20,793 nt of DNA from a virus. Location: the IMG/VR virus record IMGVR_UViG_3300044825_003714, positions 1 through 20,793 of that record. The stretch is one strand, 5' to 3'. The notes under the pieces were generated by a model. That model ran no database searches. It had not been told where the DNA came from and was given only the letters and a program-made list of their open reading frames with translations. Of the stretch, positions 228-15,788 are shown piece after piece. Made by a program: the position numbers and the translations under genes. Each line of letters opens with the position of its first letter. Position 1 is the stretch's first letter.

Positions 228-297
228 GGTGCTGACGGGCAGCGCGGAGAGAGCGCAACCCCTACCACGACGGGCCGGTCCTGTCGAGGAGCACCGG

Positions 298-1065
298 ATG
301 GAGTCACGCACCTGCAACGCCACGCGCTGCGACCATTGCGGCGCCAAACCGCCTGGATTTAAGCAACAAATCCGCCCTCTCACGCCCGCGACGTTGGCGT
401 GGTTCTTCGGCGAGGCCGCGTCTGCGATGGGCGTCCGCAGCTCACACGGGCCGCTCGTCGACATGGCCATGAGCGGGATTCAGGGGGGCGGCCGTTCCAA
501 CGGCGTCGAAGCTCGCGCGGTCGAGGCCCGTTCGCTGGACGCCGCCGGGCTTCACCGCTGCGTCACGGCACGGCTCGCGCACCTCACGGGGACGCAGCGC
601 AGTATCCTGGAGGCGCTCTACGGCCTCGGCGGCTGGACGCTCGCCCCCGAGCTGGCGCAGATCCGCGCGACGCTCCAGGCCGCCCTCGGCGAGCTCGTGA
701 ACGTCGCCCCGCTCACCGTGGCCGCCCGGCAACACGCCGCGCGTCGCCAGGCTCACCCGCCCGCGCCCCGCAAGGACCGCCCGTCGCAGCCGAAGCGGTC
801 CGTCACGCCGGCGCAGGCTGCTCGTGACTTACTTGCCGCGGACGTGGCGCTCGCCGGCAGTGCCCGTGGTGCCGTGATCGCCGCCGTCGCTCGCGAGGAT
901 CGGACGGAGCTTCAGCAGATCCTCCGCCAGGCCGCCGCGCTCGCCAGGGACGCCCGCGAGGCCGCCGCCGTTGGGGAGGTCCGCCCGAGTGGCAGGGTGC
1001 GCTCCGTGCAGATCGTCGCGCCCGCTCGCCCGCGCCTTGCCTCCGAGGTGTCGCGTGGGGAGTGA
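298..1065 (+). CDS. Putative phage regulatory/DNA-binding protein (unknown family)
   Basis: 255 residues. I chose ATG 298 because GAGGA at 286-290 lies seven bases upstream; the frame stays open to 214 but lacks a comparable site. The N-terminus carries Cys6, Cys11 and Cys14, which could be part of a small metal site. Residues about 84-111 (around LTGTQRSILEALYGLGG) resemble the helical 'scan then branch' segment of sigma-region-4 or antiterminator-Q-like phage regulators, which is an inference from pattern only. The C-terminal half is Ala/Arg-rich helix. The gene overlaps the next one by 11 bases and precedes the terminase genes, the usual place for a late-gene regulator. Coding status is well supported by frame, start site and overlap; function is tentative. 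Confidence 0.6.
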   Translation: MESRTCNATRCDHCGAKPPGFKQQIRPLTPATLAWFFGEAASAMGVRSSHGPLVDMAMSGIQGGGRSNGVEARAVEARSLDAAGLHRCVTARLAHLTGTQRSILEALYGLGGWTLAPELAQIRATLQAALGELVNVAPLTVAARQHAARRQAHPPAPRKDRPSQPKRSVTPAQAARDLLAADVALAGSARGAVIAAVAREDRTELQQILRQAAALARDAREAAAVGEVRPSGRVRSVQIVAPARPRLASEVSRGE

Positions 1066-1612
1066 GGCGCCCGCTGACGTCGCCGTGAAGGGGATCAAGA
1101 GCGTCGCTGGGGTGCTCGGCTGCTCGCCTGCGACCGTTTACGAGCTGCTCGCGCGCCCGTCCGACCCGCTCCGGCTCTTCAGCGCGGACCACGACCGCAG
1201 CCCCTGGCAGCTCCGCTCGCGGCTCGTGGCCTTTCGCCGCCGCTGGCAGTCGCCGGAGAGCATCCCCGAGGCGGACCGCGTGTCCGGGTGGGTCGCCGTC
1301 GCGCGGATCATCGGGACCTCCGTGCGGCTGGCTCAGACGCTGGCGGACCGGAAGGCGGACCCGCTGCCCGTTCTGCGCACCCGGACAGGGCGCGTGTTCG
1401 CGATCCGAGAAGCGTTGCTCGACTGGCTCGACGGGCAGAACCGGCCCCACCGATCGCGGCTCGTCACCGCGAGGAAGCGCGGAGCGGCGAGCGAAGCGGG
1501 TTCGGCGAGGGAGAACACCACCAGAGACCGCGCGCGGAGCGAAACAGGACGCAAAGCGTTCGTCAAGATGGAAAAGAATTGCTCACCCAAGAAAGATCGA
1601 GCGGCTGCATGA
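1055..1612 (+). CDS. Putative tandem helix-turn-helix DNA-binding protein
   Basis: 185 residues from GTG 1055, preceded by GAGG at 1045-1048. The open frame continues upstream only through weaker starts inside the previous gene. Two helix-turn-helix-like segments are visible. Residues about 13-33 (IKSVAGVLGCSPATVYELL) look like a classical HTH. Residues about 77-120 have an excisionase/AlpA-like layout, with VAVARIIGTS followed by a basic wing and a closing REALLDWLDG helix. The C-terminal 50 residues are Arg/Lys/Ser-rich and probably disordered, suiting nucleic-acid binding. It is joined to the terminase small subunit by an ATGA overlap (1609-1612), so it may help terminase recognise DNA or regulate late transcription. 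The exact family is not identified. Confidence 0.6.
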   Translation: MGSEAPADVAVKGIKSVAGVLGCSPATVYELLARPSDPLRLFSADHDRSPWQLRSRLVAFRRRWQSPESIPEADRVSGWVAVARIIGTSVRLAQTLADRKADPLPVLRTRTGRVFAIREALLDWLDGQNRPHRSRLVTARKRGAASEAGSARENTTRDRARSETGRKAFVKMEKNCSPKKDRAAA

Positions 1613-2523
1613 GCGAGAAGGCGTGCTGCGCCCTCGGACGGCGAGCGGACGTCGGTGCAATCAACGCGGCGCTTCGATCGGGCATGGGCGTCCGTGCGGT
1701 GGCCAAGCTCTACGGGGTCGGCAAGACCAGCGTTGGGGACCATCGAGCGATCTGCCTGAAGCTGGATCCTGTCTCGGCTGCTCCCGTGCCCCCGGACCCG
1801 CCGCCGTCCCCGTCCCCGAGGGAGACCCCGAAGGAGGAGTCGAAGCCGGACGGTGTCCGCGGACAGTCCGGACAGGTGTCCGGTGCCCCGCGCGCGCGAC
1901 TAGCGATGGACCCTAGCGAGGCGAAATCGTTCGTAGAACAGTCGCTTGTGTGCGCGGACATGATCGCCGAGGGGAAGTGGTTTGGCCGGCCCTCTGTCCG
2001 GCACCTGTCCGCGCTTTGGGGCCTGTCCGCGGACGCTGTCCGGGACCGTCACCAAGCTGGTGTCGTGGCGGCGCAGGCGGACCGAGGGCGCATCGAAGCC
2101 GAGCGACAAGTGGCGATCGGCGCGTTCCAGGAACAAGAGCGGATCGCGCTTGAGGCCTTCGAGGCGAGCAAGAGCGTGCTCGACGAGGAGGGCAACCCGC
2201 TCTCCACCGCGGGCGAGCCAAAGTTCCTCGCGGTTGCCCAGAAGGCACGGGCGGAGATCGCGAAGATCGCTGGCTGCGTGGCGCCGCCTCAGTCGGTCGT
2301 CGTGAACTTCGGCACGGACCCTGCGTTCGTGGCTGCCGCTCGGCGGTACGTGGAGACCGTGGAGGGCGTGCTCGGGTCGCCCGCGCCAATTGTTGCGCGC
2401 GTATCCGCTCGCCTCGGTGAGGTGGCACCCGACGTGGTGGAGGCGGTCCTCGACGCGGCGGCAGACCTGCTCGCGGAGCGCCTCGCGCCTTCAACCGCCC
2501 CCGCGCTCCCGGAGGCGACGTGA
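1609..2523 (+). CDS. terS: Terminase small subunit (putative)
   Basis: 304 residues from ATG 1609. The open frame extends far upstream, but there it only shadows the preceding gene, and the ATGA overlap marks the real start. Residues 12-45 form an HTH (GMGVRAVAKLYGVGKTS). Residues about 54-96 are a Pro/Ser/Gly linker, 128-148 hold a second HTH-like stretch, and 150-230 are helical and charged, as expected for the oligomerising core. Small terminase subunits recognise the packaging site and hand DNA to the large subunit, whose gene starts at GTG 2520 and overlaps the end of this one. The assignment rests on HTH content and position; the sequence is not strongly diagnostic alone. The coding region contains an unusual run of TGTCCG hexamers, listed separately. 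Confidence 0.75.
   Translation: MSEKACCALGRRADVGAINAALRSGMGVRAVAKLYGVGKTSVGDHRAICLKLDPVSAAPVPPDPPPSPSPRETPKEESKPDGVRGQSGQVSGAPRARLAMDPSEAKSFVEQSLVCADMIAEGKWFGRPSVRHLSALWGLSADAVRDRHQAGVVAAQADRGRIEAERQVAIGAFQEQERIALEAFEASKSVLDEEGNPLSTAGEPKFLAVAQKARAEIAKIAGCVAPPQSVVVNFGTDPAFVAAARRYVETVEGVLGSPAPIVARVSARLGEVAPDVVEAVLDAAADLLAERLAPSTAPALPEAT
1854..2042. repeat. Cluster of nine TGTCCG/CGGACA hexamers, candidate packaging (pac) site
   Basis: TGTCCG occurs at 1854, 1877, 1995, 2006, 2024 and 2037 on the + strand. Its complement CGGACA occurs at 1860, 1869 and 1955. Copies 1854 and 1860 abut into a 12-bp palindrome (TGTCCGCGGACA). The copies form two groups, four in 1854-1882 and four in 1995-2042, with one between at 1955. 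They fall in two different codon phases, so they are not a by-product of repeated amino acids. Two more copies lie upstream at 1281 and 1382. Elsewhere in the window I noticed only about a dozen scattered copies. The layout inside a small-terminase gene recalls the P1 pac site. Confidence 0.5.
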
Positions 2524-4139
2524 CGCCCGACGAGGCCTTCGCGGGGTTCGTGGCCCTGCATCACCAGCGTCGCGCGGAGAGAAAGAAGGCGCTCCCAAAG
2601 TGGAGCCCGCAGCCTGGACCGCAGACGTTTTGCTACGGAGCGGACCACGTCGAGCAGATCCTATACGGCGGCCAAGTGGGCGGGGGCAAGTCGGATATGC
2701 TCGTTGCGCTTGCGGCGAAGTGGCTCGATCGCCCTGGCTTCAACGCGATCATCTTCCGTCGCGAGACGCCGCAACTCGACAACCTGCTGAAGAAGGCCCG
2801 CGAAATCTACAAGTTCGGCCGACCCGGCAAGAGCGCCCCATCGATCCCCATTGCTCGGGAGAACCTCAACGACCATCGCTGGCGCGTAGACGGTGGTGGG
2901 CAGGTTCGTTTCTGGCATTGCCAGCGCGAGGACGATGCTCGCGCCCACGATGGTGACGAGTTTCAATACATTGGCTTCGATGAGCTGACGCACTTCCTCG
3001 AGTCACAGTTCGACAATCTCGTGATGCGTCTCCGAGGCTCAACGGCAGGCCTTCCTCGCATCGTGCGCGCGACCACGAACCCGGGCGGGCCGGGCGCGGA
3101 ATGGGTGAAGCGCCGATGGGGGCCGTGGCTGGACAAGAAGTTCCGCTGCGACGATTGGGAAGAGCATTGGACCGATGCTTACGGCGCGGAGCGCGTCACG
3201 CGCGGTAAGGGCCTCCCTCCGCGATTTGATGCGCGCGGCAACCCACTTCCGCCCGCCGAGGGGGGACAAGTGCTCTATGTGAGCATGTTCGGCTCGACCG
3301 AGCGGTTCAGTACGGAGCCGTTCGACGCGATGGGCGCCGCCGCGCTCTCGCGCACGTTCGTTCCGGCGAAGCTGTCGGACAACCCCGCCTTGCTAAAAGA
3401 GGACCCGGGTTACCTCGCGCGCATCCGAGCGGGCAAAGACCCTGTGCGCCGAAAGCAACTCGAAGAGGGCGATTGGGACGTCGCCTATGGAGCAGGCGAG
3501 GTGTTCAAGCGCGCGTGGTTCGAGATCGTGGACGCGGTGCCGCCCGGTCGCGCCGTCCGGTGTCGTGCGTGGGATCTCGCGGGCACCGAGCCGAGCACGG
3601 GCAATGCGGATCCCGACTGGACGCGCGGCGTGAAGCTCGCGAAGCACGAGGACGGGTTCTACTACGTCGAGCACCTCGTGGGGCGGCGCGCGCATCCGGG
3701 CGTTGTGGAGCAGCTCGTGAAGAGCACCGCAAACGAGGACGGCAAGACGACGCGCGTTCGAATACCAATCGATCCGGCGCAGGCGGGGAAGGCGCAGGCG
3801 TCCAACTTTGTGCGCCTTCTGGAGGGGTTCGATGTGCACACCGTCTCGACGAGCGGGCGTGGCGACAAGCTCACCCGCGCAGGCATCGTCGCGGCGCAGG
3901 TGTCCCCGCAGAGTACTGGCGGCACGTTTGGGCGATTCCGGATCGTGCGCGGGTCGTGGAACGCGGAGTTCTTGGACGAGCTCGAAGCATTCCCCGATGG
4001 GCCGCACGATGACATCGCGGATGCGTTCTCGGATGCGCACGATGAACTGACCGACACAATGCTCGCGCCTCCTCCGCCGCCCGAGCCACTCCCGCAAACG
4101 GACTGGCGCAGCGCGGGCCGAGGATACGGGCCGGGGTAG
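2520..4139 (+). CDS. terL: Terminase large subunit (packaging ATPase/nuclease)
   Basis: 539 residues from GTG 2520, with GGAGG at 2511-2515. This is the motor that pumps DNA into the prohead through the portal and cuts the concatemer. The ATPase half shows Walker A at residues 51-58 (GQVGGGKS), Walker B at 151-156 (IGFDEL) with the catalytic Glu, and a coupling motif at about 184-190 (ATTNPGG). The RNase H-like nuclease half keeps all three acidic positions: Asp352 (AWDLAG), Asp418 (PIDPAQAGK) and Asp497/Asp498 plus Asp501 (HDDIADA). Nothing is truncated. The Walker A form matches the GxxGGGKS type of many headful-like terminases rather than what I recall of Mu gp28. The protein ends in a Pro-rich tail, and a 196-base gap follows. 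Confidence 0.95.
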   Translation: MTPDEAFAGFVALHHQRRAERKKALPKWSPQPGPQTFCYGADHVEQILYGGQVGGGKSDMLVALAAKWLDRPGFNAIIFRRETPQLDNLLKKAREIYKFGRPGKSAPSIPIARENLNDHRWRVDGGGQVRFWHCQREDDARAHDGDEFQYIGFDELTHFLESQFDNLVMRLRGSTAGLPRIVRATTNPGGPGAEWVKRRWGPWLDKKFRCDDWEEHWTDAYGAERVTRGKGLPPRFDARGNPLPPAEGGQVLYVSMFGSTERFSTEPFDAMGAAALSRTFVPAKLSDNPALLKEDPGYLARIRAGKDPVRRKQLEEGDWDVAYGAGEVFKRAWFEIVDAVPPGRAVRCRAWDLAGTEPSTGNADPDWTRGVKLAKHEDGFYYVEHLVGRRAHPGVVEQLVKSTANEDGKTTRVRIPIDPAQAGKAQASNFVRLLEGFDVHTVSTSGRGDKLTRAGIVAAQVSPQSTGGTFGRFRIVRGSWNAEFLDELEAFPDGPHDDIADAFSDAHDELTDTMLAPPPPPEPLPQTDWRSAGRGYGPG

Positions 4140-5107: not shown

Positions 5108-6634
5108 GTGTCCGACTCCGCCGCTCGCAGCGGCCCCTTTGCGTCGTTGACGGCGTTGGCGGCGGGCTTCTTCTCGCGCGCGTCGCAGGCGCTCGCCGGT
5201 CCACCGACGGCCGCCGAGAAGCCGCGCCCGCTCTCACAGCAGCTTCTTTACGTCGGCGTCCAGACCCCGAGCGACGTCGCGAGCCTCATGCGGCTCGCCG
5301 ACACGGGGTACATGTACCGGCTCTGCGACTTTTTCGAGGAACAGCGCAACCGCGACTGCCACCTCAACACGGTCGTCTACCGTCGCGAACACGCCCTTTC
5401 GACTGTTGGTTGGCAGATCGTGCCGGCTAGCGAGAAGCGTCGCGACCTGAAGATCGCGGCGTGGCTCGAGGACGCGATCAAGCGAATGGGCGACGTCGAG
5501 CACCGCGAGGCGCGTGCGCAGGGGTTGGAGCTTCGGCCGTTCGCTGATCTCGTGGTCCATCTCAACGGCGCCACGATCCCCGGCTACGCCGCATCCGAGG
5601 TGCTCTACGCGAAGACGCAGGGGTGCATTGTCCCCGCCGGTGCACTCCCCATGGGCGCGCGCCGTTTTGTGTTCTCGCAAATCGACGGCTCGCTCCGTTG
5701 GTTCGACGCGACGGGTCCTGTCGACGGCGTCGCGTATCCAGGCAAGGACCTCCTTCGGGACTACGCTCCCGGTCGCTTCATCGTTCACCGCCCCCGTATC
5801 AACGGCGCCGCTGGCCCTCGCGAGGGGCTCATGCGCCCGCTGACGTGGGCGAGCATGTTCCGCACGTGGGACATCGGCGACTGGTTGAAGCTCGCGGAGT
5901 TGGCCTGGAAGCCGTACCGATGGGGCACCTATCAGCCCGGCGCCGGCTCCGAGGATATTGCCGCGCTCGACAAGGCGCTGAACCTGCTGATGTCGCAGGG
6001 CTGGACGCGGATCAGCGAGCGCACCGCGCTCAACATCAAGTTCCCCGAGAACACCGCAGCGGCCGGCGGAGGCCAGCACGAAGCGCTCGCCCGGTTCCTC
6101 GCCGAAGAGATGAGCAAGGCGGCCACGGGCCACACGCTCACCGTCGAGGAGGGCAAGAAGGGCACGGCGCGCACCGCCGGCACCGCGGAGAACGTCTCAC
6201 ACGGCGTCCTCGAGATCGATGCGCGCGCCGAAGAGGGGACGATCCAGCGCCACCTTGTCGCTCCGCTCGTCCGCGCGAACTTCGGCAATGTGCCGATACC
6301 CCGCTTCGTCTTCGTGACCGAGCTCGGAAGTGACGTTGTTGCAATGTCCACCGCGCTCGCCTTGCTCGTCGAAAAAGCGGGCCTCAAAGGCGTCTCCGCT
6401 TCGTGGGTCCGGTCAATGCTTGGCGCCCCCGAGCCAGACGAAGGCGAGGAAGTCCTCGGCGGCGTGCTTTGGACGCCTCCCACGGAGACCGAGGCCAAAC
6501 AACAAGAAGAGGCCGAGACGGAGCCAGCTAACGACAACGAGCCAGACGCGTCCGAAGAGAGTTTGAAGACCGCGCTTCGGAACTACCGGGTGGACCGCGT
6601 GCTCATCGCCGCTGGGATGCGGAAAGCAGCATGA
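5108..6634 (+). CDS. Portal protein, Mu gp29-like (DUF935)
   Basis: 508 residues from GTG 5108, four bases after the previous stop; the Shine-Dalgarno is weak, so translation may be coupled. Portal proteins form the dodecameric ring at one capsid vertex through which DNA enters and leaves. Residues about 55-400 match the DUF935 layout. The hallmark is an RFIVHRPRINGAAGPREG loop near 223-240, followed by LMRPLTWASMFRTWDIGDWL and an aromatic RWGTYQPGAG strand near 271-280. A Glu-rich acidic tail follows (about 440-490), ending in a short basic helix. Length is close to that of Mu gp29-type portals. The gene sits after terL as expected and overlaps the next small gene by ATGA. Confidence 0.92.
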   Translation: MSDSAARSGPFASLTALAAGFFSRASQALAGPPTAAEKPRPLSQQLLYVGVQTPSDVASLMRLADTGYMYRLCDFFEEQRNRDCHLNTVVYRREHALSTVGWQIVPASEKRRDLKIAAWLEDAIKRMGDVEHREARAQGLELRPFADLVVHLNGATIPGYAASEVLYAKTQGCIVPAGALPMGARRFVFSQIDGSLRWFDATGPVDGVAYPGKDLLRDYAPGRFIVHRPRINGAAGPREGLMRPLTWASMFRTWDIGDWLKLAELAWKPYRWGTYQPGAGSEDIAALDKALNLLMSQGWTRISERTALNIKFPENTAAAGGGQHEALARFLAEEMSKAATGHTLTVEEGKKGTARTAGTAENVSHGVLEIDARAEEGTIQRHLVAPLVRANFGNVPIPRFVFVTELGSDVVAMSTALALLVEKAGLKGVSASWVRSMLGAPEPDEGEEVLGGVLWTPPTETEAKQQEEAETEPANDNEPDASEESLKTALRNYRVDRVLIAAGMRKAA

Positions 6635-6930
6635 GCGACACCCTCGGCACGGCCCCGTATACAAGCGCTCCGACGTTGTCGTGGTGGGAACGACTCGTTA
6701 CGTGGTGGCGTACCGGCAACGGTGGTGCTGTCATCGAGCCGACGTGGACACCCGCCAAACCGCCCGCTGCGCAACGCGCATGCGGCGAGTTCCACTGCGG
6801 CCATTGCCCACACGAAGAGTATCGCGGCATTGATAACGACCATGCACGTCTGGAGCGCCACGCACACCGTCGCAGCGTCCGCCCGCTCGTGATCCCGCTG
6901 GCCCCACCGAACGACTGGATTTTGAAGTGA
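6631..6930 (+). CDS. Small Trp- and Cys-rich protein of unknown function
   Basis: 99 residues, started by ATGA overlapping the portal stop and ended by GTGA overlapping the Dps-like gene, which is good evidence that it is real. The N-terminal third has an aromatic cluster (SWWERLVTWWRTGNGG, residues 17-32), amphipathic rather than clearly membrane-spanning. The middle has Cys51, Cys56, Cys59 and His61 (CGEFHCGHCPH), spaced like a possible metal site, followed by a His/Arg-rich run. I do not recognise the family. It occupies, with the Dps-like gene, the place where Mu-type phages normally carry the MuF minor head protein, so a head-assembly or Dps-partner role is possible but unproven. Confidence 0.65.
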   Translation: MSDTLGTAPYTSAPTLSWWERLVTWWRTGNGGAVIEPTWTPAKPPAAQRACGEFHCGHCPHEEYRGIDNDHARLERHAHRRSVRPLVIPLAPPNDWILK

Positions 6931-14243: not shown

Positions 14244-15788
14244 ATGAGCGATCCGATCGGGCAGGTCTTCGAGCTGTCGGCCAGCGACAAGCTCCCGGGC
14301 CCCTACCTTCAGACGAAGTTCGGGATTGGTGGCGGCGGCACCAGCATCCGCACGCTGCTCCTCATCGGCGCGTGCGCCTCGGGCGGCGGCACGCTCACCC
14401 CGGACACGATGATCGCCGACGCGATCGACGAAAGCGACGCGATCGCGCTCACCGGCGGCACCGGCAACGAACTCCACCGCATGGTCGTGATGGTCCGGCG
14501 CTGGTTCCCGGCGACCAAGATCAAACTCGCGACGGTCACGCAGTCGACGAACACCGCGGCGACAGCGACGATCACGATCGGCGGCACGTGGACCGCAGGG
14601 AGCACCGGGCCGATCCGATACCGCCTCGGCGGCTGCCCCATCGAGGCGTTCGTGCTCGAGACCGACGACGAGACGACGTTCGGCGACACCCTCGAGGCTG
14701 TCATCAACGGCACGGCGAACTGTCCGTTCACCGCGGTCAACACCGCGGGCGCGGTCGTGCTCACCGCGAAGAGCTACGGCACGCGCGGCAACGACCTCAT
14801 CGTCTGGCAGGACCTCACCTACAAGCCGAGCGGGTTCACAAGCACGATCACTGGCGGCTCGTCCGTCGCGAGCGGCGGCAAGCGCTGCACGTCGGGCGCG
14901 GCCACGGAGAACATGTCGACGCTCCTCGACACGCTCACAAGCAGCGGCGAGGCCTTCTGGACGATCGCGGACGCGATCATCGACGCGACAAACCTCGGAC
15001 GCCTGGAGACGTGGCTCGACGCGCAGTGCGGACCGCTCGTTCGCAGGTTCGGAAACGTCGTGGTCGCGGCCACGAAGACGCTCGCCGCCAGCACCTCGCT
15101 CGCGCAGACGACGCTCGACAACGTGCGGTTCGGCTTCGGCGACTACGAGGAGGGCGAGACGCCCGCTGAAGAGGTCGCAGCCTGGCTCGCTGGGCTCCGG
15201 CACCAACGCGAGCAGACGAACCCCAACCAGAAATACGGCGACGTCCCGACGCCCTTCGTCCCGCAAGAAGCGGCCTCGAAGCGCATGTCGCGCGCGCGCC
15301 AGGTGGCCGCGCTTGACGTGGGCCTGACGCCATTCCCGACGCGCAACGGCGTGGTCGTGATGCCGCGCGCGATCACCACACGCTCGCTCACCGCCACGGG
15401 CGAGGTCGACACCGGCACGATCGACGTCGCTGCCGCGCGCGTGCCCGACGTGATCAACGAGGGCATCGGCTCGCTCTGGCAGGCCTACACCGACAGCGAG
15501 GACTCGACGGCGCACCATTATTTGCGTTCGGATCCCGCGCCCGGCGAAGAGGCGGACGTCCCCGCTGGCGTCACGTATCCGAAGGACTGGCAGCAACAGG
15601 TGACGCTCTACATGAAGGCGCGCGAGCGCGACAAGTGGATCACCGGCGTCGACACGCATCCGACCGTCGTCGGCATGCGCCCCACGACCGCCACGCCGCG
15701 GTTCGTGCAGTACACGCCCGTGATCGTGTTGCCGCACACGTACCAGCTCGAAGGCACCATCGCGCAGACGAAGTTCGTCGCGTCCTGA
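14244..15788 (+). CDS. Tail sheath protein (Mu gpL-like)
   Basis: 514 residues from ATG 14244, with GAGG at 14231-14234. Sheath subunits form the contractile helical sleeve around the tail tube. The N-terminal part contains the tube-proximal strand and a TLLLIGACASGGG segment (about 33-45). Residues about 90-190 hold an outer Thr/Gly-rich beta region. The conserved C-terminal domain includes KRMSRARQVAALDVGLTPFP, PRAITTRSLT, ARVPDVINEGIGSLWQ and the final QVTLYMKARERDKWITGVD. Length is close to Mu gpL, about 495 residues. The tube gene follows 14 bases later, the standard order. Presence of a sheath establishes a contractile tail. Confidence 0.95.
   Translation: MSDPIGQVFELSASDKLPGPYLQTKFGIGGGGTSIRTLLLIGACASGGGTLTPDTMIADAIDESDAIALTGGTGNELHRMVVMVRRWFPATKIKLATVTQSTNTAATATITIGGTWTAGSTGPIRYRLGGCPIEAFVLETDDETTFGDTLEAVINGTANCPFTAVNTAGAVVLTAKSYGTRGNDLIVWQDLTYKPSGFTSTITGGSSVASGGKRCTSGAATENMSTLLDTLTSSGEAFWTIADAIIDATNLGRLETWLDAQCGPLVRRFGNVVVAATKTLAASTSLAQTTLDNVRFGFGDYEEGETPAEEVAAWLAGLRHQREQTNPNQKYGDVPTPFVPQEAASKRMSRARQVAALDVGLTPFPTRNGVVVMPRAITTRSLTATGEVDTGTIDVAAARVPDVINEGIGSLWQAYTDSEDSTAHHYLRSDPAPGEEADVPAGVTYPKDWQQQVTLYMKARERDKWITGVDTHPTVVGMRPTTATPRFVQYTPVIVLPHTYQLEGTIAQTKFVAS

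Follow-up and report, generated by a model that had tools for sequence, protein, structure and literature searches.

Why should the gene that directly precedes a phage large terminase gene carry nine copies of a single hexamer, TGTCCG or its complement CGGACA, within 189 bp? The array occupies positions 1854–2042 of IMGVR_UViG_3300044825_003714, inside the gene at 1609–2523. The entire stretch of 20,793 bases, a complete IMG/VR record, was analyzed and is referred to below as the window. No replication genes were seen in the window, which therefore probably represents only part of the phage genome. The reading that we favor, with a probability of about two in three, is that the array is a pac site embedded in the small-terminase gene, of the architecture found in phage P1, at which packaging of the phage genome would start. 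Such a function is suggested by the anatomy of the locus, by one relative, and by one well-studied analogue.

The hexamer array and its gene

The 5′ end of gene 1609–2523 overlaps the stop codon of the preceding gene, and its 3′ end overlaps the large terminase gene (terL) by 4 bp. Downstream of terL are the genes for a Mu-type portal, a head protease, the major head protein, and the tail sheath (coordinates in Table 1). The gene product had no match in the Pfam and PHROG family searches and only weak HTH matches, and the PDB search and the fold (Foldseek) search, the latter with a low-confidence model, returned nothing usable. In this AlphaFold model, built from a two-sequence alignment and with a pLDDT of 50, HTH-like helices at about residues 15–50 are followed by a linker (52–106) and a long helix (141–188). 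According to PMC9611059, an N-terminal HTH is common among small terminases, whose sequences vary widely. Because of this diversity, the assignment depends mainly on position, the gene being directly upstream of terL. By its position, the weak HTH matches, and a predicted helical core, 1609–2523 is a candidate small terminase gene.

Table 1. Coordinates of the array, of its surroundings, and of the features compared with it
Feature	Position	Strand	Remarks
Array copies, plus strand	1854, 1877, 1995, 2006, 2024, 2037	+	TGTCCG
Array copies, minus strand	1860, 1869, 1955	−	TGTCCG
Left hexamer group	1854–1882		1854(+), 1860(−), 1869(−), 1877(+); includes the palindrome
Palindrome TGTCCGCGGACA	1854–1865		Within the left hexamer group
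Spacer between groups	1883–1994		One hexamer at 1955(−); predicted cleavage region
Right hexamer group	1995–2042	+	TGTCCG at 1995, 2006, 2024, 2037, all +
Whole candidate pac site	1846–2043		Outer edges form an inverted repeat, 1846–1869/2020–2043, 21 of 24 pairs
Upstream gene	1064–1612	+	Weak HTH_17/excisionase-like matches; holds TGTCCG at 1281 and 1382
Candidate small terminase gene	1609–2523	+	304 aa; HTH at the N-terminus, then a disordered linker and long helices (low-confidence model)
Large terminase gene (terL)	2520–4139	+	Terminase_6N, E 5e-15; Terminase_6C, E 3e-14; PHROG 979, E 5e-101
Mu-type portal gene	5108–6634	+	Portal_Mu, E 1.5e-52; query used to find the relative L072
Terminase-like gene of L072	3022–4725		29% to a Virus Rctr16k protein with the annotation "similar to terminase"
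Initiator-like gene of the L072 record	L196 6129–7055	−	Beside DnaC-/DnaB-like genes; recognized by eye
TGTCCG arrays at helicase genes (1)	L160 789–979, L079 2040–2242, L109 2531–2742, L130 4587–4830		
TGTCCG arrays at helicase genes (2)	L166 8242–8455, L122 8731–8981, L189 2807–2984, L077 4676–4904		

The existence of the array is certain. The initial annotation had listed six TGTCCG and three CGGACA copies in 189 bases, arranged 4 + 1 + 4 in two codon phases and including a 12-bp palindrome, and all of these were recovered at 1854–2042. The two further copies it placed at 1281 and 1382 are present as well, and the dozen or so others that it had estimated proved to be 14, the total on both strands of the window being 25 vs. 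18.0 ± 3.9 expected. Equal density throughout, which would have spoken against a local site, was not seen: the density outside the cluster is ordinary, and TGTCCG/CGGACA is the most clustered of all hexamers in the 20.8-kb window (Poisson −log10 p of about 13 within 220 bp). A genome-wide (Chi-like) TGTCCG signal was also considered and was dropped because of the ordinary density outside the cluster. As a separate observation, a dense run of CGCGC, 17 in 149 bases, is found at 15289–15437, inside the tail-sheath gene.

An array of this kind might be a by-product of the protein sequence, of codon usage, or of local duplication, without any function at the DNA level. The gene is GC-rich, and when its own codons are permuted about two copies arise by chance. 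However, in synonymous-codon permutations that kept both the protein and the codon usage, the maximum count per 189 bp averaged 1.5 and peaked at 6, and nine copies were reached in none of 20,000; with any hexamer allowed, the peak count in 3,000 trials on the permuted gene was again 6. Nor do tandem or protein repeats explain the copies, which are irregularly spaced and occupy both strands and two codon phases. We therefore regard a by-product as very unlikely. Among 321 ORFs of at least 150 aa, taken from the window and related contigs, only four score at least nine copies of a hexamer, namely the replication genes of the contigs L004 and L015, which contain origin-like iterons, one low-complexity gene, and 1609–2523 itself.

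The array is roughly symmetric, and the inverted repeat formed by its edges is owed largely to the hexamers themselves. In permuted genes, the corresponding pairing did not exceed 19 of 24 positions in 100 trials, vs. 21 of 24 in the window array. The spacer has a GC content of 65% vs. 70% for the gene as a whole, with a minimum of 57.5% at 1929–1968; measured against the AT-rich unwinding segment that adjoins the iterons of an origin, this is a mild shift toward AT. It also contains CTAGCGA twice, at 1900 and 1913 (13 bp apart, 1900–1919), while CTAG itself has only five copies in the whole window.

A second array in the only near relative

Searches with the portal and with the capsid each returned only L072 (IMGVR_UViG_3300036851_000755, a record of 43,232 bases), the only near relative found, whose portal is 80–81% and whose capsid is 74% identical to those of the window. 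No close relatives of the query protein P0001 were found in IMG/VR or among GenBank phages, and the two-sequence alignment A2, used as a query, found no further relatives. In the same place of the operon as 1609–2523, and downstream of a homologue of the upstream gene 1064–1612, L072 has a gene at 2048–3025 with 24% identity (E 2e-4; 28% in a global alignment), which also overlaps the following terminase-like gene by 4 bp.

This gene carries an array of a different motif. GYGGAA is present at 2240, 2252, 2274, and 2282 and again at 2340, 2352, and 2364 (4 + 3), and because these copies lie in two codon phases and encode different residues (AER, RGT, VER, GGT, CGI, RGM), selection seems to act on the DNA. 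With any hexamer allowed in the null, the best count was reached in 8 of 3,000 permutations (p about 0.003), so that the L072 array is only moderately significant after a search over all hexamers and is less overwhelming than that of the window. GGAACGG has 14 copies in the whole L072 record, five of which are in the array, and no clustering of TGTCCG was found in L072. The two arrays share their operon position, their segment of a weakly homologous gene, the division into two groups, and the use of two codon phases, and the letters CGGA are common to most copies of both. They differ in the motif itself, in that the L072 copies are mostly direct repeats, and in the following gene, which in L072 encodes a non-homologous terminase-like protein. 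Counted in codons, the arrays span 82–145 in the window, 65–107 in L072, and about 65–118 in P1 (HEX4 and HEX3 in pacA), in all cases after the HTH, which for the window gene is a predicted one.

The recurrence in L072 also bears on a reading in which a phage regulator, such as the HTH protein encoded at 1064–1612, uses the array as an operator or partition-type site serving late genes or maintenance. That neighbor has weak excisionase/HTH matches and two more TGTCCG copies, and an array with dyad symmetry would suit a dimeric regulator. The array, however, is inside a coding sequence and 480 bp ahead of the next gene start, and the presence of an array of another motif in the equivalent gene of L072 fits sites that track the protein of their own gene. 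A regulatory site is thus rather improbable and ranks third, behind an origin.

The terminase-like gene of L072 is not homologous to the window terL, gave no Pfam terminase match, and has few relatives. It replaces the Terminase_6 type of the window ahead of otherwise similar head genes, and the terminase module thus appears to have been exchanged. Relatives of the window TerL are 28–44% identical, and in L069 and the 14 best of these relatives no comparable cluster was found just 5′ of terL.

Likeness to P1 pac and other packaging sites

The pac site of P1 comprises 161 bp inside pacA, where the hexamer groups HEX4 and HEX3 flank the cut and an IHF site, and the titer of wild-type P1 drops about ninefold when these hexamers are altered synonymously (PMC10028697). 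The P1 record places the start of pacA at 90,529 and annotates cuts at 90,804–90,813. When applied to pacA, the cluster scan gave TGATCA as the top hexamer cluster (6 copies; 5 of 1,000 permutations), which makes it about as significant as the L072 array, with TGATCA/TGATCG at gene offsets 194, 201, 213, and 228 and at 324, 336, 347, and 375.

The comparison with P1 pac made in the initial annotation stands for the position in the gene, the size, the two groups, and the use of more than one codon phase. The P1 array is found after the N-terminal HTH region of the small-terminase gene, and that of the window after the predicted HTH region of a gene that is a small-terminase candidate by its position against terL; both have two hexamer groups, over about 160 bp in P1 (gene offsets 194–380) and over 189 bp in the window (246–434). 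The comparison fails for the IHF-like spacer site and for homology to PacA. No IHF consensus with up to two mismatches was found in 1883–1994, and hhalign of A2 against PacA, as a test for a terminase of the PacA/PacB type, gave a probability of 0.1%, so that homology of the protein to PacA is not detectable. Moreover, the P1 hexamer TGATCA/G is Dam-methylated, and TGATCA is palindromic, whereas TGTCCG is directional, is present in 4 + 1 + 4 copies, and contains no GATC, in line with the expectation of a hexamer without a Dam site. By these membership tests the window array is not a P1 pac site, but it probably works like one.

Packaging also starts inside the small-terminase gene in P22, whose pac is a 22-bp asymmetric sequence within terS (PMC9611059), and in the haloviruses PhiH1 (PMC6210493), phiCh1, and ChaoS9 (PMC6471424), according to the passages of these papers that cover them. 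As described there, the PhiH1, phiCh1, and ChaoS9 sites differ in lying close to the stop codon of terS, within a GC-rich motif that is conserved, and in those passages a hexamer array is not described for any of the four phages.

It is extremely unlikely that the array belongs to a packaging site of the cos type, with subsites like those of lambda cosB, instead of a headful pac site. A cos site would involve the same kind of gene and of protein–DNA contact, and the type of end is not readable from a contig; two groups inside the gene nevertheless fit P1 pac better, and lambda cos lies outside the small-terminase gene.

On the favored reading of the array as a pac site, small-terminase oligomers would bind both hexamer groups via their N-terminal HTH domains and would bend the spacer between them, the large terminase may then make the first cut in or near this spacer (about 1883–1994), and headful packaging would proceed from there along concatemeric DNA.

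Hexamer arrays in replication genes and the meaning of the array

Arrays of this kind are not specific to packaging, because TGTCCG arrays of other phages sit at helicase genes. Other phages were scanned for close TGTCCG triplets, and eight arrays among the matches listed were checked for genes; each of them overlaps or borders a gene for an AAA_25 helicase or primase-helicase. These arrays are irregular, extend over both strands with 9–13 copies, and are positioned at the 3′ end of the gene or just after it. The phages that carry them differ widely in GC content, and in several of the arrays a hairpin separates inverted copies. The arrays are probably a recurrent iteron-type origin, on which the papers searched had nothing. 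Among the matches listed, stretches with at least seven copies and at least two per strand numbered 22 of 119 for TGTCCG and 9 of 120 for the control hexamer GTTCCG. Since the checked arrays sit at helicase genes and the control also forms two-strand arrays, TGTCCG was rejected as a packaging-specific signal. In L103 (3140–3257), L146 (11854–12001), and L188 (5193–5294), the TGTCCG arrays are compact and surround a palindrome such as agtcctaaaggact.

The arrays of L004 (806–950) and L015 (433–565) belong to sister phages that are 90% identical in the head region. Both consist of inverted-pair iterons in a replication-O-like gene, recognized by eye, with the motif GGCAAAA in L004 vs. GAGACAA in L015, and this difference is a natural origin-specificity swap. 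These lambda-type origins resemble the window array in that short sites are arrayed within a gene for a DNA-binding protein and motifs swap between relatives, and differ from it in belonging to replication genes away from terL and in repeating in tight inverted pairs.

The main rival, second to the pac reading, is accordingly a replication origin of the lambda type, with iterons inside an initiator gene and bound by the initiator, whether the product of 1609–2523 or another protein. Iterons inside initiator-like genes, as in L004 and L015, look alike to a cluster scan, all eight TGTCCG arrays tested elsewhere adjoin or overlap helicase genes, and the window is without its replication module, so that the phage's own origin is outside view. 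Against this, the gene of the array is in the head operon and not in a replication module, is beside terL and the portal, and in both phages shares 4 bp with a terminase gene. In addition, the window array is without the central hairpin seen in several of the helicase-gene arrays. The L072 record also holds a separate cluster of AAGCAA iterons (L196, about 6618–6670), inside an initiator-like gene next to DnaC-/DnaB-like genes and followed by an AT-rich stretch, which is a candidate origin of that phage. Because of these separate iterons, the array in the L072 small-terminase candidate need not be an origin, an argument about the relative that does not extend directly to the window phage, the replication module of which is absent from the window. 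Altogether, we consider an origin unlikely.

The pac reading would matter first for the study of recognition. According to PMC9611059, specific binding by small terminases has proved difficult to demonstrate in P22, Sf6, SPP1, and SF6, and how packaging sites are recognized is still unclear. A dense symmetric array, together with a relative that uses another motif, offers a two-way specificity test in which each protein should prefer its own array; with a constant gene segment and a motif that changes from one phage to the other, recognition is directly testable. The finding also suggests a way of searching uncultured phages for candidate pac sites, as multi-phase hexamer clusters in the gene before terL. 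More tentatively, each small-terminase gene of this group may carry its own recognition array, with a motif that shifts with the HTH of the protein (CGGACA here, GYGGAA in L072). If this possibility holds, a packaging gene would travel and diverge together with its start site, the two forming a self-contained cassette for specificity, in parallel with initiator genes that move with their origins.
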